DNA of 64,000 nt, from positions 372,001-436,000 of the forward strand of contig JAZKBK010000001.1 of the NCBI GenBank assembly GCA_040388625.1, given 5' to 3'. Both the position numbers and the translations under genes were made by a program. Positions 37,511 to 50,389 of this stretch are shown here, in pieces (position 1 is the first letter of the stretch; every line of letters starts with the position of its first letter). The notes beneath the pieces are model-generated. The model worked only from the letters and a program-made list of their open reading frames with translations. It had not been told where the DNA came from and ran no database searches. This DNA is from Gemmatimonadota bacterium (GTDB lineage Bacteria; Gemmatimonadota; Gemmatimonadetes; Gemmatimonadales; Gemmatimonadaceae).

Positions 37511-39712
37511 TTACTTCACGCCGAACTGCTTGTTGAAGTAGCTGACCGTCGCCGAGTCAGCGCTCGCCCAGGACGCGTGTCGCAGAAAGCCATGGATCTC
37601 GTCCGGAATCACCATTTCCTCGTAGCTCACTCCGGCGGTGGAAAGGCGGCGCGCGAGGTCGACCGTTTCGTGAAAGTGCACGTTGCGATCGTCGTCACCC
37701 TGAATCAGCAACACCGGGCTCTTCCACCTTGCAATTGCCGACACTGGCGATGAAGTCCATGCAACGTCCAGCGCCTTCTTGATGTCACTCTTCTCGTAAC
37801 GCAGCTGTGCGTTGATGAGCCTGCTGCCCGATTCATCCAGCCAGTTGTGAACGCCGTGCATGTCCACGCCGGCCTTGAAGATGTCGGAGTTGTGCGCGAG
37901 CGCCATCGCGGTGAGGAAGCCGCCGTACGATCCGCCCCAGATTCCGATGCGCCGCGAATCGACCGACGCGAGCGAGCGCAGATACTCGCCACCCGCCGTC
38001 ACGTCCTGATACTCGGATGCGCCAGCCGATCCAGCGTGCGCCGGATGGTGAAAGTTGTGTCCGTACCCAATTCCAAGTCTGTAGTTCACCGACAGCACGA
38101 CGTAGCCGTGATTCGCGAGATACTGGTTGACCGCGTACGAGTTGGAGTAGTAATCCATGTAATGCCAACCGAGCATCATCTGGCGTGGCGGACCGCCGTG
38201 CACAAAAACGATGCCCGGCTTCCTCGCCGATCCCGCGCCATTGCGGTCGAACAGCTGGCCATGCACCAAGGTTCCGTCGGCCGCCTTGAACGTGACCGGC
38301 TTCGGGATCACCAGATCTGCCGTCGGGAACGACGCAGGAATCACTTCTTCTGCAAGGGCGCGGGGAGAGCCACCGTTGATTGGAATCACCATCGGCAGAG
38401 GCGGCCTCTGCGCGCCCGCACCGACGAACGCAACTGTGCTTCCGTCGCCTGTTACGAACGGTGTCCACTCGAGACCGGTGCCAGACGTGAGCGCAACAGG
38501 CGTGGCTCGATCGACCGGCACGCGGAAGATGTGACGCCGGTCGCCGTCGCCCGGAGTGTTACCGGTGTTTGCGCTGTATAGAAGCGATTTGCCATCAGGC
38601 GAGAGAGTGATGAACTCCGCCATGAACGATCCGGGAGTGAGCAGCAATGGCGCCCCGCCCGTTTCGGCGACGGAATACAGATGTGGCCATCCGTCCGTAT
38701 CGTTCAGGAAGACGATGCGTCCGCCGGAAGCCCACGAAAGGTTGGTGCCTCCGTCAGTGGTCGGTACGGAGCTCAACAATGTGTTGGCGCTCTGCCACAC
38801 GAGTCGACCCAGACCTGTTGCAGCATCGGCGGTCCAGATTGCCCAGGGGCGCGGATGCAGTTCCAGTACTGTTTCCGGCGCACCGCCAGTGCCAGGCGTG
38901 CGCACGAACGCGATACGCGTCCCATCCGGCGACCATTTCGGCGACCGGTCGTGCGACGTCGACGGAGCGAGGTAACGGATCGGCGTCGAGTCCGACGTGA
39001 AGATGCCGATGAAGCTGTGGTCGCCACGGTTGGAAACGAAGGCGAGCCGGTCGCCGTTTGGTGACCACGTAGGAGATCCATTGCTCCCTCGCGCGAAGAA
39101 GAGCTGCTTCGCCGCCGCCGATCCGTCGATTGGTACGGTCCAGATCGCCTGGCCCTTAGTGAATGCGACGCGATCACCGCGTGGGGAGATCACGGGCTCG
39201 TCACCCTCCGCAAGCAGTTTCGGCGGTTGGTTCGACGCGCCGTCCACGTGCACCGCCCATATCTCGACCTTGGGCTTGACCGGCGAATGATCCGGATCCG
39301 GTGGCAGCCCGCCCTCGGCGGCCCAGTTCGCGTCGTGATCACCGCCGCGCACGTATACAACCCACGTGCCGTCCGGCGATACGGCGAGATTCGTGAGCTC
39401 CTGTCCGTCGTCCGCACGGTAATCCGTGAGTGTGCGCGCCTCGAAGTCGGGCCCCGCAGCGGTCCAGACGTTACGCACACCGGATGCGTCGATGACCCAC
39501 GCAATTCGCGAAGATTTCGGCGAAGCCGTGAGTCCGGTCGCGAACGGGTAGCTCAGCACCTGCTCCAGTGTAAACGACGCGCTCGGCACCGCGACGCGAT
39601 TCGCCTGTGCCCCGGCGGCGATGGTGATTGCTGCCGACAGTAAGAGCCCGGCGACGGACATGGCAATGGCGTTACGTATCCCAGCACGACTTCTTGCACG
39701 GAGAGCCAACAT
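37511..39712 (-). CDS. Secreted S9-family peptidase (prolyl oligopeptidase type)
   Basis: The 733-residue protein has a signal peptide (AMSVAGLLLSAAITIAAGAQA). A beta-propeller with PD40/WD40-like repeats follows (AVSPDGTWVVYVRGG, PTWSPNGDRLAFVSN, PKWSPDGTRIAFVRT, TLSPDGKSLLYSAN). The C-terminal catalytic domain has Ser near 595 in GGSYGG, Asp near 674 in GDDDRNV and His near 707 in EIHGF. Such enzymes cut short peptides, often after proline or as dipeptidyl peptidases. The ATG at 39712 with AGAGGA upstream was chosen. It faces blaI across a 203-base gap, so the repressor there may control it. Confidence 0.9.
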   Translation of the reverse strand: MLALRARSRAGIRNAIAMSVAGLLLSAAITIAAGAQANRVAVPSASFTLEQVLSYPFATGLTASPKSSRIAWVIDASGVRNVWTAAGPDFEARTLTDYRADDGQELTNLAVSPDGTWVVYVRGGDHDANWAAEGGLPPDPDHSPVKPKVEIWAVHVDGASNQPPKLLAEGDEPVISPRGDRVAFTKGQAIWTVPIDGSAAAKQLFFARGSNGSPTWSPNGDRLAFVSNRGDHSFIGIFTSDSTPIRYLAPSTSHDRSPKWSPDGTRIAFVRTPGTGGAPETVLELHPRPWAIWTADAATGLGRLVWQSANTLLSSVPTTDGGTNLSWASGGRIVFLNDTDGWPHLYSVAETGGAPLLLTPGSFMAEFITLSPDGKSLLYSANTGNTPGDGDRRHIFRVPVDRATPVALTSGTGLEWTPFVTGDGSTVAFVGAGAQRPPLPMVIPINGGSPRALAEEVIPASFPTADLVIPKPVTFKAADGTLVHGQLFDRNGAGSARKPGIVFVHGGPPRQMMLGWHYMDYYSNSYAVNQYLANHGYVVLSVNYRLGIGYGHNFHHPAHAGSAGASEYQDVTAGGEYLRSLASVDSRRIGIWGGSYGGFLTAMALAHNSDIFKAGVDMHGVHNWLDESGSRLINAQLRYEKSDIKKALDVAWTSSPVSAIARWKSPVLLIQGDDDRNVHFHETVDLARRLSTAGVSYEEMVIPDEIHGFLRHASWASADSATVSYFNKQFGVK

Positions 39713-39830
39713 TTGCTTCCTCTGTTCAGACTGGAGAATCCTGCTTCGGGCATGTATGCACACGGCGAATGTGGCGCTAGCGGTGCGAACCGCAAGATCC
39801 GGGGACTGGGCCGTTCGGGATGCTCCCCCC

Positions 39831-39859
39831 TTGACAGTCACGCTGTAATGGTGAAAATT
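39831..39859 (+). promoter_or_regulatory. Promoter candidate for the blaI-M56 operon
   Basis: TTGACA at 39831-39836 is a perfect -35 box. A 17-base spacer leads to AAAATT at 39854-39859, a poor -10 match that lies in the left arm of the operator dyad. Transcription would start near 39866, 50 bases before the blaI ATG. Confidence 0.4.
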
Positions 39860-39878
39860 CAACACAGTTGATTTTTCA
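39852..39878 (+). promoter_or_regulatory. 27-base operator-like dyad between S9 peptidase and blaI
   Basis: Left arm TGAAAATTCAAC (39852-39863), spacer ACA, right arm GTTGATTTTTCA (39867-39878). The arms match at 11 of 12 paired positions. The site is AT-rich in a GC-rich genome and overlaps the predicted -10 box, as expected for the BlaI-type repressor encoded 38 bases downstream. It differs from the classic BlaI half-site TACA, so the recognition sequence would be new. Confidence 0.6.
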
Positions 39879-39915
39879 GCAGTACCAGACCGCCCTTCAT
39901 CAGTCGAGCATTCGA

Positions 39916-40323
39916 ATGGCTTCCAGGCGCACCGCAACAGCTGCTACCGCCCCTTCATTCTCCCGCCGCGAACGCCAGGTAATGGACATTCTGCACCGGC
40001 GAGGCGAGGCGACAGTCGCTGAAATCATGAACGATCTTCCCGATCCACCGACTTATTCTGCAGTGCGCTCGGTGTTGCGCATACTCGCGGAGAAGGGCGC
40101 CATCATCCACAAGGAAGATGGCCCGCGCTACGTATACTCGCCGGCGCGACCTACCGAAACAGCGCGCGAGGACGTTCTCGCACACGTCGTCAGAACTTAC
40201 TTCGCGGGATCTCCGGAGCAGGCGGTCACAGCGTTGCTTCGCATGTCCGACACCGACATGACCGAAGACGACGTGCAGCGCCATCGGGAAACGATTCGGC
40301 GCGCGCGCCAGGAGGGGAGATAA
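39916..40323 (+). CDS. BlaI/MecI-family repressor
   Basis: The 135-residue winged-helix protein has SFSRRERQVMDILHRRGEAT, VAEIMNDLPDPPTYSAVRSV and LRILAEKGAIIHKEDGPRYV, the BlaI/CopY arrangement, followed by a C-terminal dimer helix region (VVRTYFAGSPEQAVTALL). BlaI proteins bind operators as dimers and are destroyed by a BlaR1-type membrane protease after a signal. Such a protease gene starts two bases after this stop. The start is an ATG at 39916, chosen because the longer frame would include non-homologous sequence across the operator. Confidence 0.9.
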   Translation: MASRRTATAATAPSFSRRERQVMDILHRRGEATVAEIMNDLPDPPTYSAVRSVLRILAEKGAIIHKEDGPRYVYSPARPTETAREDVLAHVVRTYFAGSPEQAVTALLRMSDTDMTEDDVQRHRETIRRARQEGR

Positions 40324-40325
40324 TC

Positions 40326-42500
40326 ATGTCGCCACTTTCTCTTGCCAGCGTCGGCCCTTTCCACGGGGAAAACCTGTCACTGCTGATACTCATCGTGAAG
40401 GCGACGCTGATCCTGATTGGCGCGCTGGGCGCTACACTCGCCATGCAACGCGCGGCGGCGGGTGCACGTCACCTCGTCTGGCTCGTTACGCTCGGTGCGC
40501 TGTTGCTCATTCCCGCGCTCACGGTCTGGGCGCCGATCCATCTTCGGATTCTCCCAGCTCTGCCGGCGACGAGCGGCGTGGTGTCGAATGCTGGCGTTGC
40601 AGCGACGCGGCGCGCTTCTGCACTGCCGGGCGACCGGTCGGCAGCCGCAACGAAGCCGCTTGATATCGCGGCATCGCAACACTCAGTCGCACCTGAAACT
40701 TCGCCGGCGACTGAGACGTCAAGCATTGCCGACCGTATACGCAACACAGATCTGTTGACGATCTTGCTTGTCACCTGGCTCGCAGTCGTACTCGTGATCA
40801 CGGCCTCGCTCGCGTTTGCGGCGCTGTCCCTGCGACGCATCGTTCGTAACAGCATTCCTCTGACCGGGAGAGAATGGCTCGACACCGTGTGGGAGATCTC
40901 CGATCGCATCGGGCTCGAGAAGGCGCCGCGGTTGTTGCAGAGCAGGGAAACGAAGATGCCGTTCGCATGCGGTACGCTGCACCCAACTGTCGTCCTTCCG
41001 GTAGAGAGCGAGGGATGGTCGCCGGAGCGACGCAGCGCGGTACTGCTGCACGAGCTCGCGCACGTGCGCCGCAGGGATCTGGTCGGTCATACACTCGGCC
41101 GCATCACGTGCGCCGTGTACTGGTTTCATCCGCTGGTCTGGACGGCAGCAAAGCGACTGCGCTCGGAGAGCGAGCGAGCGTGCGATGATCTGGCCCTGAT
41201 GTGCGGCACGCGTGCGGCGGATTACGCCGAGCATCTCCTCGACATCGTTACTTCCGTGCGCGGCGATCGCACACCGATGGTCGCGCTCGCCATGGCGCGA
41301 AGGAAGGAATTCGAGGGTCGCATGCTCGCGATCCTCGATCCGCAGGCTCGGCGTTCGGCTCCAGGTCGTTGGAAGACCGCTGCGCTCGTTGGCTCGCTCG
41401 GCACACTCTCCATTGTCGTTGGCGCCGCTGCACCCATGCCTCGCGTGGCTCCAGCAACACCATCACCGATCGTGCGTGCGCCTCTCGCCGAGGCTTCGCA
41501 CGTCGCCACAACGTCACAGGTTGTGGCAACGCCTCGGGTTGCGCTCCCATCAGGAGGTTCTGATCGGACGGAAGACCACGGAGCGAACAACGCGCTTGCT
41601 GACGCTGCGGCTCGATTCGGAATGAAGGTCGCTTCCAGCGTATTGGCCGACGCACAGTCTGGCTTGCAGACTATAGCCCCGAAGGTGAGCGTGCGCGCTT
41701 CGGATTCTGACGGACGGAAGAGCGAGATCGCGGTCAAGCCCGCCTTTTCGTTCGATGCGACCTTCGATTCAAAAACTCCCGACGAGCGTGCAGATCTGCT
41801 CGCGAAAGTTCTTGCGACCGACGCGAACGCGGAATTGCGCAGAACAGCAGCGTGGGGACTCTCGAAGTACATCGAGAACCCGGTCGCCTCCTCGGCGTTG
41901 ACTCGTGCACTGCTCCACGATGCGAACGCATCGGTGCGGGAAACGGCCGCTTGGGCGCTCGCCCGCGATCATCGCAACGCCGCGCAGTCGGCCGTCAGTG
42001 CGCTAACGTCGGCGATTCGTACTGACGCCAGCGACTCCGTTCGCGCCACCGCCGCGTGGGCGCTGGGCAGCATTCACGATGACGCGGCAATCCCTGCGCT
42101 CACGGCGGCACTGGCCGACAGGAACGCAGACGTGCGTAGCAGGGCGGTGTGGGCGCTTGGGAGTGTGCGGCCGCGATCAGCGCCGAGCGCACTCGTTGCG
42201 AAACTGCATGATAGCGATCCGGATGTGCGGACCCTCGCTGCATGGGCATTGTTCACGATTCGCGATACGACTTCCATTCCCGCACTGCAGGCCGCGCTCC
42301 GCACCGAGACCAACAAGGACATCCAGGTCGATTACATCCGCGCGCTCGGCGCGATGGGTGAACAGTCACTGAGCGCCATTCGCGGTCTGCTCGAGTCGTC
42401 GGATCCCAAGGTCAAGTCGATGGCGGTGGATGCGCTGGCCGGCGGTAATGCGACCGGCCCGTGGCCGTGGCCATGGCCGCAGCCGCGACCGTTCCCGTAG
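40326..42500 (+). CDS. M56 (BlaR1-type) membrane metalloprotease fused to HEAT repeats
   Basis: The 724-residue protein begins with BlaR1-like transmembrane helices (about residues 18-40, 48-66, 138-164), a cytoplasmic zinc protease domain with HELAH at 242-246 and the family continuation FHPLVWTAAKRLRSESERACDD, then a fourth hydrophobic segment (residues 348-370). BlaR1 has a penicillin-binding sensor after this point. Here a low-complexity linker leads to about seven HEAT repeats (residues 484-705; repeating unit like DANASVRETAAWALA). The last 14 residues form the tail GPWPWPWPQPRPFP. It starts two bases after the BlaI gene, so it is the likely inactivator of that repressor. Confidence 0.88.
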   Translation: MSPLSLASVGPFHGENLSLLILIVKATLILIGALGATLAMQRAAAGARHLVWLVTLGALLLIPALTVWAPIHLRILPALPATSGVVSNAGVAATRRASALPGDRSAAATKPLDIAASQHSVAPETSPATETSSIADRIRNTDLLTILLVTWLAVVLVITASLAFAALSLRRIVRNSIPLTGREWLDTVWEISDRIGLEKAPRLLQSRETKMPFACGTLHPTVVLPVESEGWSPERRSAVLLHELAHVRRRDLVGHTLGRITCAVYWFHPLVWTAAKRLRSESERACDDLALMCGTRAADYAEHLLDIVTSVRGDRTPMVALAMARRKEFEGRMLAILDPQARRSAPGRWKTAALVGSLGTLSIVVGAAAPMPRVAPATPSPIVRAPLAEASHVATTSQVVATPRVALPSGGSDRTEDHGANNALADAAARFGMKVASSVLADAQSGLQTIAPKVSVRASDSDGRKSEIAVKPAFSFDATFDSKTPDERADLLAKVLATDANAELRRTAAWGLSKYIENPVASSALTRALLHDANASVRETAAWALARDHRNAAQSAVSALTSAIRTDASDSVRATAAWALGSIHDDAAIPALTAALADRNADVRSRAVWALGSVRPRSAPSALVAKLHDSDPDVRTLAAWALFTIRDTTSIPALQAALRTETNKDIQVDYIRALGAMGEQSLSAIRGLLESSDPKVKSMAVDALAGGNATGPWPWPWPQPRPFP

Positions 42501-42551
42501 GAAACGCACAAGTGCGCGCGTAACCCGGCCCGAGGCCGCTACGGGCGCATG

Positions 42552-42580
42552 CTTTTGACCCGAAGTGCTGATTTTTCACC
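42552..42580 (+). promoter_or_regulatory. Possible promoter and operator half-site before the secreted HEAT gene
   Basis: CTTTTGAC at 42552-42559 contains a -35-like TTGAC. GCTGATTTTTCACC at 42567-42580 is, in reverse complement, GGTGAAAAATCAGC, matching 12 of 14 bases of the left half of the dyad near 39850 (GGTGAAAATTCAAC). Another CTTTTGAC occurs at 44015-44022, ahead of the DUF5916 gene. Regulation by the same BlaI is suggested, not shown. Confidence 0.35.
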
Positions 42581-42624
42581 ATACAGCCCGGTGCGCAGAC
42601 ATGGGCAATCACGGAGGAGGAACG

Positions 42625-43992
42625 ATGTTGAGAATCATTGGAGCGGTTGCTGCCGCAGCGTTCGTGTCGACCGCAAGTGCGATCAGGCACGACCATTCGT
42701 CGCTCGCCGGCGTAGCCGACGACACCGCGTCGTTCGACGTGAGCGCACTGCTCGCCGCCGCGCGCGGAGTATCACCAAACGTATGCGCGCTCGCCGCGAG
42801 GGCCGTCGGCAACGGTAGTTGGGGGCGTTCCAGCGACGCGCCGGTGACACCGCTTGGCGCGTCGGCCGACCTGCACGGTATGCTGGACTCCCGCAATCTT
42901 CCTGCTGTTGATGTCACCAGGCTGATCGGTGCGCTCGGGTCGGACGATCCATGCGTGCGCGAGCTCTCAGTGCGTCTCATCGGCACCCAGAACAATGCGA
43001 GCGTTGCGCCGGAGCTGCTCACACGACTCACATCCAGCAATGCATCGCTGCGTGCGATTGCCGCATTCGGACTTGGTCTCGTCGATGCCAGGACAGCGGT
43101 GGATCAGCTCATTCACGCGCTCGGCGACGCAACGGCCGACGTGCGCGCCAACTCCGCGTGGGCGCTTGGCAGAATCGAGGACGGTCGCGCGCTGTCGTCG
43201 CTGGTTTCGCTGTTCAACGATGCGTCACCGGTAACGCGCGAAGCGGCGGTCATTGCGGTTGGCCGAATGGATTCCACGAGCACGTCGGCAGCCCTCATAC
43301 GCACGCTGCAACATGATGACGTCGCCTCCGTGCGCCGCGCCGCCGCGTGGGCGCTCGGAACGCTGGACGCGAAAGATGGCGTACCGGCACTCTCCACGAC
43401 GCTCACCAACGACAGCAATGCGGAAGTGCGCGAGATGAGCGCGTGGGCACTTGGCAACCTCGACGACAACGCTGGTGCGAGCGCGCTTCAGCGTGCGCTG
43501 CAAAAGGATTCAGACGACAAGGTGCGTGAATCCGCCGCGTGGGCGCTCGGCGAACTCGGGGACGCATCCTCGACTGACGCCCTTGCAAGTGCCACCGAGT
43601 CCGACAGAAGTGTGAAAGTGCGTGGTACAGCGGCGTGGGCAATCGGTCAGATCGGCCATGCCGATCGTCGTGCGGTTGCCGGCCTGACGCATCTGCTCAA
43701 GGAGTCCGATGACAACGTTCGGCTCCGCGCGGCGTGGTCGCTGGGCCAGATCGAAGACAGCACGGCGCTTCCGGAGATCGATTCCGCTCTCGGCGTCGAA
43801 AAGAACTCCGACGTGCGCCGCGCGCTCATTCGGGCTATCTCCAAATCAGGCGGCAATACCGCCGCGAGAATGCGCGTGCTGATCGACTCCAAGGATCCAC
43901 AGGTGCGCGAAGCCGCCATTCGCTCGCTCGCGGGCGGCCGGGCGTTCGGCCCGTGGCCATGGCCGGCGCCGCGACCGCGGCCGTGGCCGTAA
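42625..43992 (+). CDS. Secreted HEAT-repeat protein with a Trp/Pro tail
   Basis: GGAGGAACG just before the ATG at 42625 fixes the start. The 455-residue protein has a signal peptide (IIGAVAAAAFVSTASA) and about 11 HEAT repeats of 31-32 residues from residue 105 on, with the repeated core VRESAAWALGELGD, VRRAAAWALGTLDA, VREMSAWALGNLDD. It has no enzymatic motif. The end LAGGRAFGPWPWPAPRPRPWP closely matches the end of the upstream M56 protein (LAGGNATGPWPWPWPQPRPFP). It is probably a periplasmic binding scaffold and paralog of the sensor region of its neighbour. Confidence 0.8.
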   Translation: MLRIIGAVAAAAFVSTASAIRHDHSSLAGVADDTASFDVSALLAAARGVSPNVCALAARAVGNGSWGRSSDAPVTPLGASADLHGMLDSRNLPAVDVTRLIGALGSDDPCVRELSVRLIGTQNNASVAPELLTRLTSSNASLRAIAAFGLGLVDARTAVDQLIHALGDATADVRANSAWALGRIEDGRALSSLVSLFNDASPVTREAAVIAVGRMDSTSTSAALIRTLQHDDVASVRRAAAWALGTLDAKDGVPALSTTLTNDSNAEVREMSAWALGNLDDNAGASALQRALQKDSDDKVRESAAWALGELGDASSTDALASATESDRSVKVRGTAAWAIGQIGHADRRAVAGLTHLLKESDDNVRLRAAWSLGQIEDSTALPEIDSALGVEKNSDVRRALIRAISKSGGNTAARMRVLIDSKDPQVREAAIRSLAGGRAFGPWPWPAPRPRPWP

Positions 43993-44082
43993 ACCCGCGC
44001 CCGCGGCAAGCAACCTTTTGACTACTGGTACCATCTAACCACGCGATGGCTGAAACCAGACACTTATCTGACACAACTTCCA

Positions 44083-46824
44083 ATGCACGTATATCGGTCC
44101 GCAGTTCTGGCGTTGCTCGCCCTCGCACCAGTCGCAGTCCACTCTCAGGAAACTGCCACGTCGTCGATTCATCCGCGCACACCGCCGGTGGCGGTTGCGA
44201 CGCGGCGCGAAGGACCCATCACACTCGACGGAAAGCTTGACGACGCTGCATGGAAGGCAGCGACACCGATAACAAAGTTCATACAGCAGCAACCGCACGA
44301 AGGCCTGCCAGCGACGCAAGCCACCGAGATTCGCATTCTATATGACGATCAGGCCCTGTATATCGGGGCTCGCGTGAACGACTCGCTCGGGGCGAAGGGG
44401 GTTCGCGCTCCGCTGGCGCGACGCGACCAGCTGCTGGATGCCAGTGGGAATAACGGCTCGTTCAATTCGTTGACGACGGACAAGATCATAGTTGTCCTCG
44501 ATCCGTACCACAATCACATCGACGAGGCCTGGTTCGAGGTGAATCCGCAGGGCGTCAAGGGCGATCAGTTCGACGGCGATCCGTCCTGGGATCCCATATG
44601 GGAGGCCGCGACGCACGTCGATTCACTCGGCTGGACCGCGGAGATGCGTATCCCGTTTTCGCAGCTGCGATTCTCGCGCGACTCCGTGCAGACGTGGGGA
44701 ATGGAAGTCTGGCGCTACGTGGACCGGCTCAATGAGCAGGACATGTGGGCGTACTGGAAAACGAGCGAGTCTGGAGGGCCGGCATTCTACGGTCATCTCA
44801 CGGGTCTCAAGATCGGCGCGCAGCCACGCCAGTTCGAGCTGCTGCCATACGTCCTGAGCGGTGTGCATTCCAAGTACGCCGTGCCGACAGATCCATTTCA
44901 CAAATCGACGTCGACCAATCTCGCGACGGGCATGGACCTCAAGTATCTGTTGACATCGAATCTCACGCTCGATGCAACGGTCAACCCCGACTTCGGTCAG
45001 GTGGAAGTCGATCCCGCGACAATCAACCTGTCCGCGTACGAAACGTACTACGACGAGAAGCGCCCGTTCTTCGTGTCGGGTAGCAGCGCGTTCGATTACG
45101 GCGGAATGAACTGCAATTTCTGCAGCAATACTTCCAACCTTGGCCTCTTCTATTCCAGGCGCATTGGCAGAGCGCCGCAGCTGAACAGCTTCGTCAGCGG
45201 TCTCTCGGCGTTCAGCGATCTGCCCAATACCACATCGATACTTGGCGCTGCCAAGATTACCGGCCGCACCGCGGGTGGCATCACCGTGGGCATGCTCGAC
45301 GCGCTTACAAACCGGGAGAGCGCCGAGTACGTCGCGGCGCCAGGCGGACCCACGGTGACGCAGCCGGTCGAGCCGCTCAGCAACTATTTCGTCGGCAGGG
45401 CGAAGAAGGACCTGCGCGAGGGAGCAACGACCATCGGCGGAATGTTCACGTCCGTCGCGCGGCAGATGAACGACACGATTCTGTCCGATCGCCTACGCAG
45501 TCATGCGGAAGCCGTGGGACTCGATTGGAATCATCGGTGGAGCCATCGTGACTACGACTGGATGGGATCCATTGCCGCGTCGAACGTTGCCGGATCGACA
45601 CAGGCGATCGGACTGACCGAACAGTCGAGCGCACACTACTTCCAGCGGCCCGACCGGCGGGTTCGGAGCGACGGACTGTTCGGTGCAGCGTACGACAGCA
45701 ATGCGACGTCGCTGCGCGGATACGGCCTGTATACGCGAGTTGCAAAGACCAGCGGCAACTGGTTCTGGGAAACGGCCCAGAACTGGCGCAGCCCCGGGTT
45801 CGAAGTGAACGATCTATCGTATCTCGATCGCGCCGACTACAAGTGGATGAACTTCAACATCGGTCGCAACTGGAGTCTCCCGGGAAGCTGGTATCGCAGC
45901 GCCATGCTCATGGCGGGCGGCCAGCAGCAGTTCAACTACGACGGTGATCGCACCGATCAGCAGGGGCAGGTCTTCACGCAGATCAATTTTCTCAACTACT
46001 GGAGACTGCGCAGCTTCTACATCTATCATCCAGCTGTGCTGGACGATCGCCTGACGCGTGGTGGACCGGTGGTCATGCGTAGCGGCTACAAGGTCCTGAT
46101 GGGTCAGGTCTCGACGGATCCGCGCGCGCGCGCCGTGTTCGACGTCTCCGTGCAGGGTGGTCCGAGCGTCGGTGGCCAGGGCCATCAGCTATCCATCGCC
46201 CCGGGAATCGCGCTCAAGCCGGCGTCCAGCATCTTCGTCAGCCTTACGCCGACGTTCAGCTCGAACGAGGACAACGCGCAGTACGTGACCACGGAGACCG
46301 ATCCGACGGCGACGGCGTTTTACGGCCATCGCTACGTGTTCGCCTATCTCAGGGCTGAGACCTGGTCGCTCGACACGCGCATCAACTGGACATTCACGCC
46401 GAATCTCACGTTGCAGCTGTACGCGCAGCCCTACTTCTCGAGCGGCGACTACGCGTCGTTCCGTGAATTCGCGGCGCCCCGTGCACTCACGAAAGTCATC
46501 TATGGCAAGGATGCTGGCACCATTGTACGCACGCCGGCAACGGCGACGTCCGGAGCGACGTACACCGTCGATCCCGACGGCGCGGGACCTGCGAAGCCCT
46601 TCAGCTTCGGCGATCCGAACTTCGCATATCGCTCCCTGATCGGAAACGCCGTGCTGCGGTGGGAGTACCGTCCAGGCTCGACAGTGTTCTTCGTCTGGAC
46701 TCAGACGCGCTCCGGCACCAATGACGTAGGAAACTTCGACTTTACACGCGATCGCACCGCACTGTTGAGCGACAGACCGACGAACATTTTCCAGATCAAG
46801 GTGAATTACTGGTTGGGAAGATAG
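44083..46824 (+). CDS. DUF5916-type outer-membrane protein with a CBM9-like N-terminus
   Basis: The 913-residue protein has a signal peptide (VLALLALAPVAVHSQ) and a carbohydrate-binding family 9-like domain (residues 40-240; ITLDGKLDDAAWKAATPITKF, VVLDPYHNHIDEAWFEVNP, WTAEMRIPFSQLRF). A DUF5916 region follows (TVNPDFGQVEVDPATINLSA, YETYYDEKRPFFVSGSSAF), leading into a beta-rich C-terminal half with alternating aromatic residues and a final KVNYWLGR, as in outer-membrane barrels. Members of this family are found next to peptidases and TonB receptors; their function is unknown. It lies 91 bases after the secreted HEAT gene, with a -35-like CTTTTGAC between. Confidence 0.85.
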   Translation: MHVYRSAVLALLALAPVAVHSQETATSSIHPRTPPVAVATRREGPITLDGKLDDAAWKAATPITKFIQQQPHEGLPATQATEIRILYDDQALYIGARVNDSLGAKGVRAPLARRDQLLDASGNNGSFNSLTTDKIIVVLDPYHNHIDEAWFEVNPQGVKGDQFDGDPSWDPIWEAATHVDSLGWTAEMRIPFSQLRFSRDSVQTWGMEVWRYVDRLNEQDMWAYWKTSESGGPAFYGHLTGLKIGAQPRQFELLPYVLSGVHSKYAVPTDPFHKSTSTNLATGMDLKYLLTSNLTLDATVNPDFGQVEVDPATINLSAYETYYDEKRPFFVSGSSAFDYGGMNCNFCSNTSNLGLFYSRRIGRAPQLNSFVSGLSAFSDLPNTTSILGAAKITGRTAGGITVGMLDALTNRESAEYVAAPGGPTVTQPVEPLSNYFVGRAKKDLREGATTIGGMFTSVARQMNDTILSDRLRSHAEAVGLDWNHRWSHRDYDWMGSIAASNVAGSTQAIGLTEQSSAHYFQRPDRRVRSDGLFGAAYDSNATSLRGYGLYTRVAKTSGNWFWETAQNWRSPGFEVNDLSYLDRADYKWMNFNIGRNWSLPGSWYRSAMLMAGGQQQFNYDGDRTDQQGQVFTQINFLNYWRLRSFYIYHPAVLDDRLTRGGPVVMRSGYKVLMGQVSTDPRARAVFDVSVQGGPSVGGQGHQLSIAPGIALKPASSIFVSLTPTFSSNEDNAQYVTTETDPTATAFYGHRYVFAYLRAETWSLDTRINWTFTPNLTLQLYAQPYFSSGDYASFREFAAPRALTKVIYGKDAGTIVRTPATATSGATYTVDPDGAGPAKPFSFGDPNFAYRSLIGNAVLRWEYRPGSTVFFVWTQTRSGTNDVGNFDFTRDRTALLSDRPTNIFQIKVNYWLGR

Positions 46825-47233: not shown

Positions 47234-47348
47234 CTCCGCCAGAACAGGGTACCGGCGGATGAGATCCGGTACCTCGCGAACGCATCGCTGATCGTAGGTT
47301 GGGCGCAGGTCAAAGTTGCCGCTTCACTCGCCCGGTCGTCCTCCAACG

Positions 47349-48476
47349 ATGCCAAACAGACACGCGAGAGCCACACGCGCGGCCGTAATCGTCGCGTCCC
47401 TTCTAGCCGTCACCGCGCCCGCGCTTCAGGCGCAGGTGGTGCCCGCGAAGAATGCGCAGGCTGCCAGAGCAACCCCATCGGTCGTCAAGCACACGGTCAA
47501 GCCGGGCGACACACTATGGGACATCGCCAAGTTCTACCTCAAGGACCCGTTCAGGTGGCCTGAAGTCTTTCACGCGAATACGGACATCGTCAAGAACCCG
47601 CACTGGATCTATCCCGGGCAGGTTCTCACCATCGACGGATCGGCAGTGAAGCCGGAAGTCGCGGCCCGGGTGGATTCCACAGGCTTTGTCGTCGCCCAGA
47701 TCCAGACGCGCGCGCAGGCGCCGACCGTATTCGCCGAGCACCAGAGCACAGTCGACGAAAGACTTGCGGCCGCAACGGCGATGCCGCCGGCCCTTACGGT
47801 GCGTCCCGGTGAATACGAAGCGGCGCCTTACGTGGTATCCGAGAACGGACGGCTCGAGGCGGGCCGCGTGATCGGGCCCGTCGACCGGCCAGCGCTCGGT
47901 CTTTCATCTGACGCAGGCTTCCGTCTGTTCGACCGGGTCTACGTATCGATTCCGGCAGGGGTGAACGTCGGCGACAAGGTGGTCGTCGCGAAAACCGGCG
48001 AAACCATCGCCGACGTGGGCCGTGTCATCGAGCCGACAGCCGTCATGCGCATCGACTCGCTCGCCGGTACGTCTCAGGCAATCGGCACTATCGTCAAGCA
48101 ATTTGGAACAGTCGTTCCGGGGCAGAGGATTGTCCTACCCGGACGAACGTTCGAAAGCACCTCTACGCGCCCTCTGGCCGGCAGCTACCCCCTTTCCGCC
48201 AAGCTGGTCTGGGTGCAGGGCTCGCCCAGGCTTCCGTCGGTGCAGACGTACGTGATTCTCGCAGTTGGCGAGGCGAAGGGTGTGCGGCCGGGAGACCAGT
48301 TCACGCTGCTCAGCGATGGGCAGTTCAGTGATGGAACGCCGGCACCCCTGAGCGCCACGGCGCGGGTGACGATCGTTCGCGTCACTCCGTTCGGTGCCAG
48401 TGGAATCGTCGTACATCAGGATCAACCCGAGATCCAGACGGGAATGGCGGCCCGTCTCACAGCGAAGATGCCATAA
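47349..48476 (+). CDS. Secreted LysM-domain protein
   Basis: The ATG at 47349 gives 375 residues with a signal peptide (AAVIVASLLAVTAPALQA) and one LysM domain at residues 45-95 (HTVKPGDTLWDIAKFYLKDP, then FHANTDIVKNPHWIYPGQVL), which binds peptidoglycan. The rest (residues 130-375) contains repeated beta-rich motifs such as RVIGPVDRP, GVNVGDKVVVAKTGETIADV and GVRPGDQFTLLSDG. It precedes the Tol-Pal genes by 72 bases and may anchor that envelope system to the wall, but no direct evidence shows this. Confidence 0.8.
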   Translation: MPNRHARATRAAVIVASLLAVTAPALQAQVVPAKNAQAARATPSVVKHTVKPGDTLWDIAKFYLKDPFRWPEVFHANTDIVKNPHWIYPGQVLTIDGSAVKPEVAARVDSTGFVVAQIQTRAQAPTVFAEHQSTVDERLAAATAMPPALTVRPGEYEAAPYVVSENGRLEAGRVIGPVDRPALGLSSDAGFRLFDRVYVSIPAGVNVGDKVVVAKTGETIADVGRVIEPTAVMRIDSLAGTSQAIGTIVKQFGTVVPGQRIVLPGRTFESTSTRPLAGSYPLSAKLVWVQGSPRLPSVQTYVILAVGEAKGVRPGDQFTLLSDGQFSDGTPAPLSATARVTIVRVTPFGASGIVVHQDQPEIQTGMAARLTAKMP

Positions 48477-48548
48477 CCGGATGTCGTAACAACGATGCCA
48501 CTATGCACGACGCCGGCTTAGATTTGGCGTTTTGCCGACGGAGTTGTA

Positions 48549-49268
48549 GTGATTCAGATATTGGCTTGGGCGCAGGTCGGCGTGGTGCCGACCACGCCTC
48601 TCGATATGGTGGTCAGCGCGACCGCGCCAACGAAGATCGTACTCGGCGTCCTCATCGCGTTGTCGCTCGTGAGCTGGGCGATCATGTTCGCGAAATGGGC
48701 GCAATTCCGTGGAATAACGCGCAAGTCGAGTGCGTTCATGCTGAACTTCGAGCGTGCGTCGTCGTTCGAGGCGGCAGTGGATGCCGCGCGACAATCGAGT
48801 GATCTGCCGCACGGCCGCGTACTGCGGCGTGCGAGCGAGTTCCTGCGCGAAGTGACGCCCGCGCTCGCTGCCACTGCGGGTCGCGCAGCGAAATTCAGCG
48901 GATCACAGGTCGAAGCTCTCCGCCTCGTGCTCGACGCGGAGACCAACGCTGCGCGAGACAGACTCTCGCGCTACGTCCCATCGCTCGGCACCATCGGGTC
49001 GGTGAGCCCGCTCATCGGTCTCTTCGGCACTGTGCTTGGCGTAATCGAGGCGTTCATCGGAATCGCGTCACAGGGCTCCGGCAACATCGGTGCTGTTGCG
49101 CCTGGTGTGGCAGAGGCACTGATAGCGACCGCCGCCGCGCTCGCCGTCGCTATCCCCGCGGTGTTCGGCTACAATCTGTTCGCAAACCGGTTGAATCGGA
49201 TCGACAGCGAGCTCGAAGGCTTCGGCACGGAGCTCATCGCGCTTCTCGTGCGCGAGGGACGGATCTAG
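48549..49268 (+). CDS. tolQ: TolQ/ExbB proton-channel protein
   Basis: The 239-residue protein has the family's membrane segments: VLGVLIALSLVSWAIMFAKWA near residue 33, then LGTIGSVSPLIGLFGTVLGV near 152 and GVAEALIATAAALAVAIPAV near 195. With TolR it forms the proton-driven motor of Tol-Pal. The TolQ rather than ExbB call rests on the neighbouring tolB, pal and cpoB. The GTG start follows a 72-base gap, and tolR begins directly after the stop. Confidence 0.88.
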   Translation: MIQILAWAQVGVVPTTPLDMVVSATAPTKIVLGVLIALSLVSWAIMFAKWAQFRGITRKSSAFMLNFERASSFEAAVDAARQSSDLPHGRVLRRASEFLREVTPALAATAGRAAKFSGSQVEALRLVLDAETNAARDRLSRYVPSLGTIGSVSPLIGLFGTVLGVIEAFIGIASQGSGNIGAVAPGVAEALIATAAALAVAIPAVFGYNLFANRLNRIDSELEGFGTELIALLVREGRI

Positions 49269-49691
49269 GTGGCGAACCGCGGCCGTCGGCGTGGTGAGCG
49301 TCTACCGATCAACGCCGAGATCAATGTTGTGAGTCTGATCGACGTGATGATGCTGCTGATGGTCATCTTCATGATCACGGCGCCCATCATGCAGGGCGGC
49401 GTCGATGTGGCGCTTCCCAAGGCTGAAGCGCGGCCGCTCGAGGCCAAGAGCGGATTGGTTGTGACGGTGAATCGTGCCGGTGAGATATTCGTCGACAAGG
49501 ACAAGCTTACCTACGAGCAATTCCGGGCGAGCTTCAAGGCCCTGGCGAGCCAGCACGGAAAAAACGGCGTGTATCTTCGCGCCGACCAGGGTGTACCGTA
49601 TGGCATGGTGGTGCGAGTACTGGCTGTAATGCGAGCGAGCGGGTCCACCGACGTCGGCCTCGTCGCCGAACCGGAGGACATGCCGCGTTGA
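49269..49691 (+). CDS. tolR: TolR/ExbD motor protein
   Basis: The 140-residue protein has a basic N-terminus (RGRRRGERLPINAEINVVSL), one transmembrane helix with the conserved Asp (IDVMMLLMVIFMITAPI), and a periplasmic domain ending YGMVVRVLAVMRASGSTDVG. It starts with GTG immediately after the tolQ stop and overlaps the next gene's TTG start by four bases. Confidence 0.9.
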   Translation: MANRGRRRGERLPINAEINVVSLIDVMMLLMVIFMITAPIMQGGVDVALPKAEARPLEAKSGLVVTVNRAGEIFVDKDKLTYEQFRASFKALASQHGKNGVYLRADQGVPYGMVVRVLAVMRASGSTDVGLVAEPEDMPR

Positions 49692-50389
49692 ATAGTAGCG
49701 AGCGCGATGGTGGACTCACCGGGTCGCTGGGTGTGTCCGCTGTGGTGCATCTGACGATTCTTGGGCTGGCTATCTGGGCACTCCGGCCGGGTCCGCCGGT
49801 AGTCCTTCCTCCGATCTACAAGGTCAATATCGTTGCGGCGCCACCGGGCCCGCGAGCCATTGGCGAGGTCACTCGGGCTCCGGCTCCGACGAATCCGGCT
49901 CCGACCCCGCCAAAGATGCGCGAGACACCGTCCTCAGTGCCTCCCGCGCCCAGCAAGGCCCCGCCAGCGCCCACGACGCGGGCGACGCCAGTGGAAGCTC
50001 CCCCAAAGAAGGCCGCGCCAGCTACCAAGGCCCCAAAGGCCGGAGGTGGCCCTACAGGCGGTCGTGGTACTGATGTCGCTACCGTACAGACGGCTGGTAT
50101 CGACTTTCCATTTCCCGGGTATCTCAACAACATCGTTCGGCAGATAGCGCTGAACTTTCGCGTCCAGAACCCGAACTCCCCGTTGAGCGCGACGATGTCA
50201 TTTCTCATTCACCGCGATGGCAGCGTCACGGACGTGAAATTCGTCCACCGGTCCGGAGTCTACTCCTTCGATCTGGAGGCTCAGGGAGCCGTCGAGCGCG
50301 CATCGTCGTCGTTCGGTCCGCTTCCCGACGGTTTCCGGGATGATGTCCTCCCCGTAGTTTTCAGCTTCGATCCTCGTTTCCTGCAGTGA
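49688..50389 (+). CDS. tolA: TonB/TolA-like energy transducer
   Basis: The 233-residue protein has one N-terminal transmembrane segment (GVSAVVHLTILGLAIWAL), a Pro/Ala/Lys-rich periplasm-spanning region (residues 50-125, with PAPTNPAPTPP), and a C-terminal TonB-type domain (FPFPGYLNNIVRQIALNF, then SFLIHRDGSVTDVKFVHRSG). Its place between tolR and tolB argues for TolA's job, while the C-terminal domain looks like TonB. The spanning region is short compared with Escherichia coli TolA. TTG is the predicted start, giving the overlap with tolR. Confidence 0.8.
   Translation: MNSSERDGGLTGSLGVSAVVHLTILGLAIWALRPGPPVVLPPIYKVNIVAAPPGPRAIGEVTRAPAPTNPAPTPPKMRETPSSVPPAPSKAPPAPTTRATPVEAPPKKAAPATKAPKAGGGPTGGRGTDVATVQTAGIDFPFPGYLNNIVRQIALNFRVQNPNSPLSATMSFLIHRDGSVTDVKFVHRSGVYSFDLEAQGAVERASSSFGPLPDGFRDDVLPVVFSFDPRFLQ

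Follow-up and report, generated by a model that had tools for sequence, protein, structure and literature searches.

The window analyzed here is a 64-kb stretch of Gemmatimonadota DNA from a genome of 3.84 Mb (G000), and it contains five adjacent genes that encode a BlaI-family repressor, an M56 metalloprotease, a secreted HEAT protein, a DUF5916 protein, and a divergently transcribed S9 peptidase (Table 1). All five had been proposed in a sequence-only reading, and each was recovered by Pfam with the family named there. The blaI gene likely starts at the ATG at 39916, and its stop codon is separated from the start of the M56 gene by two bases. For the secreted HEAT gene, an upstream GTG at 42565 was dropped in favor of the ATG at 42625, which is preceded by GGAGGAGG. 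Downstream of these genes (47316-50389), a LysM-type protein and an apparent TolQ/TolR/TonB-type gene set were recognized by eye.

Table 1. Genes and predicted regulatory elements of the locus, in window coordinates.
Feature	Position	Strand	Evidence or status
Secreted S9 peptidase, divergent	37511..39712	-	PF00326
blaI promoter: TTGACA 39831-39836, 16-nt spacer, GAAAAT 39853-39858	39831..39858	+	Predicted
Operator O1, GGTGAAAATTCAAC, overlapping the -10 element	39850..39863	.	Predicted, conserved
Operator O2, GTTGATTTTTCAGC, 17 bp from O1	39867..39880	.	Predicted, conserved
blaI-family repressor, 135 aa	39916..40323	+	PF03965, E 4e-23; winged helix with recognition helix PTYSAVRSVLRIL (alignment)
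M56 BlaR1-type metalloprotease with C-terminal HEAT domain (residues 487-704), tail GPWPWPWPQPRPFP	40326..42500	+	PF05569, HEAT_2
Operator O3, GCTGATTTTTCACC, upstream of the HEAT gene	42567..42580	.	Predicted, conserved
Secreted HEAT protein, 455 aa, Sec-type signal peptide, tail GPWPWPAPRPRPWP	42625..43992	+	HEAT_2, models
DUF5916 and CBM9-like outer-membrane protein	44083..46824	+	Pfam

The repressor carries the PF03965 domain of the BlaI/MecI family, is encoded next to an M56 gene, and includes the region SPEQAVTALLRMSD, which is conserved in the alignment; conserved palindromes at its own promoter and at a putative target promoter (O1, O2, and O3) are likewise those expected of this family. 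The M56 protein matches PF05569 at 118.9 bits (cut-off 31; E 3.1e-34), and its zinc site comprises H242ExxH246 and E283xxxD287, of which H242, E243, H246, E283, and D287 are invariant in 17 relatives. The distance between the two motifs is 41 residues, as in BlaR1, where they are H201ExxH and E242xxxD (PMC9834060). Pfam detected only M56 and repeat families in this protein, with no penicillin-binding domain, and its match to the blaR1_generic model falls far under the cut-off (92 of 400 bits). The protein belongs to the M56 family but lacks the sensor feature that defines BlaR1/MecR1.

In its place, the AlphaFold model contains 16 helices at residues 487-704, mostly with pLDDT values near or above 90, which correspond to seven to eight HEAT repeats and agree with the roughly seven counted from the sequence alone. 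Both this protein and the secreted one contain PF13646, and both are modeled as solenoids with Foldseek matches to HEAT repeat structures. The M56 model is poor in its membrane and protease parts: four long helices (16-39, 45-67, 143-175, and 348-368) surround the protease, with low confidence there. By analogy with BlaR1, the protein would have four membrane helices, with the HEAT domain outside and the protease inside.

This sensor has a paralogue in the secreted HEAT protein, whose repeats are 41% identical to those of the M56 protein over 229 residues (E 2e-39); the two proteins have similar C-terminal ends, which bears out the earlier statement that they share the same repeat type and end. 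The modeled solenoid of the secreted protein is longer than that of the sensor, contains two invariant cysteines in the N-terminal region, and is similar to alphaReps, importin-alpha, and transportin; a tryptophan occupies one fixed position in about 70-75% of the scored repeats. Across loci, the repeats fall into a sensor group and a secreted group divided by a single split (support 99/98), which indicates an old duplication that was subsequently passed on as a unit. Identity between the two HEAT domains is 0.450 within a locus versus 0.447 between loci, which gives no hint of pairwise co-adaptation, and lineage-specific co-adaptation was discarded on the same values. A tail such as GPWPWPWPQPRPFP is present on both proteins and conserved across relatives, although it is lacking in L096, L099, and L040, where the HEAT partner is kept. 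A pattern search of G000 found the W/P/R tail on no other protein, which rules it out as a general sorting signal; the tryptophan repeats were also rejected as its partner because tryptophan and tail are not strictly concurrent.

To determine how widely this arrangement is conserved, M56 genes were collected from 99 genomes of the family using the M56 part alone as the query, so that the choice of genes was not steered by the HEAT domain. To these were added a whole-protein scan of public genomes and 298 genomes sampled across the phylum, giving a total of 169 distinct M56 genes whose flanking genes were scored by script. At least three HEAT repeats were present in 45 of the 169, and 34 of those, all from Gemmatimonadota, also carry a P/R-rich (mostly WP) tail. 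Where the flanks were long enough, the tail-bearing genes had an adjacent BlaI gene in 30/30 loci and a HEAT gene within 1 kb downstream in 32/32. The 11 tail-less M56-HEAT genes (one of which, L124, is merely cut by the contig end) had BlaI in 10/10 and a HEAT partner in 7/10, whereas M56 genes without HEAT repeats had BlaI in 120/121 and a HEAT partner in 0/96. The tail-bearing unit is also found in a second family of the same taxonomic order (L251-L254), where the L254 contig ends before the expected HEAT gene. BlaI, M56-HEAT, and secreted HEAT are a conserved unit in Gemmatimonadota. The system postulated from the sequence, a BlaI/BlaR1-like pair with a HEAT sensor and a secreted HEAT paralogue, is in this respect supported, and the absence of linkage that had been named as grounds for abandoning it was not observed.

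Among about 49 loci of other phyla, a scan seeded with the M56 sequence found no M56-HEAT protein. The C-terminal parts of M56 proteins are otherwise diverse: in L046, L048, L052:8024-10396, L124:5028-7400, and L144, many end in RVRTVNGDI-like sequences, and one, from Planctomycetota, carries CarboxypepD_reg domains. Short M56 proteins of about 400 aa (L066, L068, L070, L104, and L107) have AWARYAL-like ends that resemble one HEAT-type repeat and were left out of the HEAT scoring. In Krumholzibacteriota, L176:7971-9737 encodes an M56 protein with C-terminal ankyrin repeats, preceded by a BlaI gene and overlapped at its end by a DUF5916 gene; this is a second repeat-type sensor, in another phylum, with the same kind of partner.

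With at most one mismatch allowed, the palindrome TGATTTTTCANC has three copies in the 64-kb window, where 0.41 would be expected, and all three lie in this locus. The dyad previously noticed near 39852 is real, and it proved to be one of two operators before blaI, with a third before the HEAT gene. In relatives, the consensus TGYTGA-WWWW-TCARCA forms a tandem pair upstream of blaI, 17 bp apart in 18/21 loci, and the -35 box TTGAC lies 20 bases ahead of the O1 core in 23/25; the location of the predicted -10 element inside O1 fits repression. The strict pattern detected an O3-type site in 28 of 30 scored segments upstream of HEAT genes and in none of 6000 shuffled segments. The two misses are L086, which is off by one base, and L100, from a lineage with other operators. 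Four loci of the sister family also have a third copy ahead of the HEAT gene. In many relatives, a terminator-like hairpin in the M56-HEAT gap precedes the O3-type site and separates it from the M56 gene, so the HEAT gene is probably its own transcription unit. A strict scan found no terminator in this gap in the window, and an intrinsic terminator was not retained as a feature of the present locus.

Loci with differing operators (TGCTAGATATCTAGCA in L096 and L099, GTGCGAA..TTCGCAC in L040, GCTAC..GTAGC in L098) also differ in the BlaI recognition helix, which changes from TYSAVRS to SYSAVRA and others. This covariation ties the palindromes to BlaI at the sequence level; O1, O2, and O3 are its putative binding sites.

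The operators also point to which genes the repressor may control. With a relaxed pattern, G000 has seven sites, and a reversed-pattern control has none: three lie in the triad locus, two form a tandem pair at C5:378127, and two are single sites in or between unrelated genes (L228, L229). The pair at C5:378127 is intact (L249:4128-4733) and precedes a broken DUF5916 remnant, of which an intact relative exists in G030:C1. The strict pattern gave one to four sites in each of 23 related genomes with the triad, mostly within it, with a single control hit in all. Outside the triad, these genomes have 13 operator places, five of which lie just upstream of DUF5916/CBM9 genes (G030:C1, G009:C16, G014:C26, G051:C175, and G051:C510). 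Two others are at the start of MacB/FtsX-type permease genes. One each precedes an M1-like protein, a disrupted amidohydrolase-like frame, a small membrane or secreted protein (G022), and a disrupted secreted alpha/beta-hydrolase frame (G065), while one abuts a PF00144 (beta-lactamase/serine hydrolase) gene (G041:C105) and one is intragenic (G002:C149). Since DUF5916 has only 2-12 matches per genome, fragments counted, five of 13 is far above chance (p about 4e-10 by a rough binomial that ignores kinship). The 14 genomes of the same family with a weak or no match to this M56 protein have three sites in total, all apparently intragenic.

Because operators precede their genes, the HEAT and DUF5916 proteins are the probable outputs of BlaI. 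The secreted HEAT protein, whose gene sits behind a conserved operator copy in the position of blaZ, is most likely produced under the control of the circuit and not an accidental neighbor. The DUF5916 protein is also a probable output, as had been suggested, and operators before DUF5916 genes elsewhere in related genomes support this. The 90-bp HEAT-DUF5916 gap in the window yielded neither an operator nor a terminator, and transcription from the HEAT promoter may continue into the DUF5916 gene here. DUF5916 genes also lie near BlaI-M56 loci without HEAT in Gemmatimonadota (11/67, co-directional and within 4 kb downstream), which suggests an older link. Loci with DUF5916 behind a HEAT-less BlaI-M56 pair include L261, L262, L264, L266, L267, L045, and L047; in L261, GYTGAWWWWTCARC operators occur before blaI and before DUF5916. 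A full-text literature search found no paper on DUF5916, a family that gains a regulatory context here. The S9 peptidase, also suggested as an output, fared differently: it occupies the same divergent place only in a locus of the same genus (L074), and with an adjacency limited to this genus, its role as an output or part is not supported and it was ruled out as a conserved component.

Together, these findings lead us to consider it likely that the locus encodes a derepression circuit of the BlaI/BlaR1 type with a HEAT-repeat sensor. In the resting state, BlaI would occupy the tandem operators over its own promoter and the third over the HEAT promoter. Four predicted membrane helices would anchor the M56 protein, placing its zinc protease on the cytoplasmic side and its HEAT superhelix on the outer side of the inner membrane. 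The protease would be switched on by some change at the HEAT domain and, by analogy with BlaR1, would cleave BlaI, and BlaI-M56, secreted HEAT, and, here, the downstream DUF5916 protein would then be made. The secreted HEAT protein would be the regulated product, as beta-lactamase is for BlaR1, and would probably bind the same thing as the sensor, handling or sequestering it and so ending the signal. Of this, the gene order and its conservation, the operators and their placement, the operator sites at DUF5916 genes, and the ancient split between sensor and secreted repeats are observed. BlaI binding and cleavage, the topology, the signal, the feedback, and the functions of the outputs are inferred.

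As the signal we prefer an extended polypeptide, a reasonable guess based on the likeness to alphaRep, importin-alpha, and transportin and on the recurrent tryptophan. A fuller version, in which the system monitors the envelope for extended polypeptides (misfolded, cleaved, or foreign) through a HEAT groove outside the inner membrane and answers with a secreted sensor paralogue that binds the same polypeptides and with DUF5916 outer-membrane proteins, is speculative, and we think it rather unlikely to hold in full. If true, it would be a BlaR1-like alarm for a protein or peptide, not an antibiotic.

The secreted HEAT protein could itself be the signal partner: as a soluble antagonist or co-receptor, it would bind the HEAT domain of the sensor through its repeats or the shared tail and keep the protease inactive or active. 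The common repeats and tail, the strict linkage of the two HEAT genes, their predicted co-regulation through the same operator, and a model like those of extended-peptide binders are all consistent with this role, which is compatible with that of an output. However, identity within loci does not exceed that between loci, and L096, L099, and L040 keep the HEAT partner without the tail; we regard this role as possible but doubtful. The commonness of BlaI-M56 pairs without HEAT (120/121) would suit a simpler account, in which the pair is an ordinary one, the HEAT neighbor is kept for another reason, and the palindromes belong to another regulator. Such a regulator would need to account for palindromes that lie on the blaI promoter at a fixed spacing, recur before the HEAT gene, change along with the BlaI recognition helix, and are nearly absent from genomes of the same family that lack this M56 protein, which makes this account improbable.

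Kinship with BlaR1 also raises the question of whether beta-lactams or cell-wall damage are still sensed, with HEAT serving only as a scaffold to bring in a penicillin-binding partner. The extra operator that abuts a PF00144 gene in one relative would be in keeping with this, but that site is single, the probable outputs that recur are HEAT and DUF5916 proteins, and the M56 protein has no penicillin-binding domain of its own; we consider this very improbable. The derepression circuit with a HEAT sensor remains our preferred reading, and the concrete operators named here make it testable.

In the open-access literature, we found no paper joining M56 and HEAT repeats, although the architecture may already be listed in domain databases. 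In repeat type and fold, both HEAT domains resemble alphaRep and PBS-lyase-type HEAT proteins, which provide the best sequence and structure matches, but here they are fused to M56 or secreted and carry the W/P/R tail. The repressor shares its winged-helix family and palindromic operators with the CopY/CopR copper repressors (core TACANNTGTA; PMC7253601), and it matches TIGR02698 below the cut-off; CopY/CopR sense metals without a protease and use another operator, and no metal genes were seen here.

The closest parallels are BlaR1/BlaI/blaZ and MecR1/MecI of Staphylococcus aureus, in which a repressor and an M56 protease are likewise encoded together. The 41-residue spacing of HExxH and ExxxD (PMC9834060) and, by homology, a C-terminal extracytoplasmic sensor are shared with BlaR1; as in both systems, palindromes attributed to the repressor lie at its own promoter and at the promoter of the putative target gene. 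In the bla system, the BlaR1 sensor has class D beta-lactamases as relatives, and the regulated beta-lactamase is the product of blaZ, so that the sensor domain is homologous to the regulated secreted product, as it is here (PMC9834060, PMC7593790). Unlike bla and mec, the present system has HEAT repeats as its sensor instead of a class D beta-lactamase-like penicillin-binding domain, secreted HEAT and DUF5916 proteins as its probable products, an operator core of TGA-N4-TCA, and a Gram-negative-type host. By analogy, the circuit would follow the bla scheme with another sensor and another product, which suggests that the bla logic, in which a sensor akin to the regulated secreted product is combined with a protease that cleaves the repressor, extends beyond antibiotic resistance and represents a plan with exchangeable sensors.
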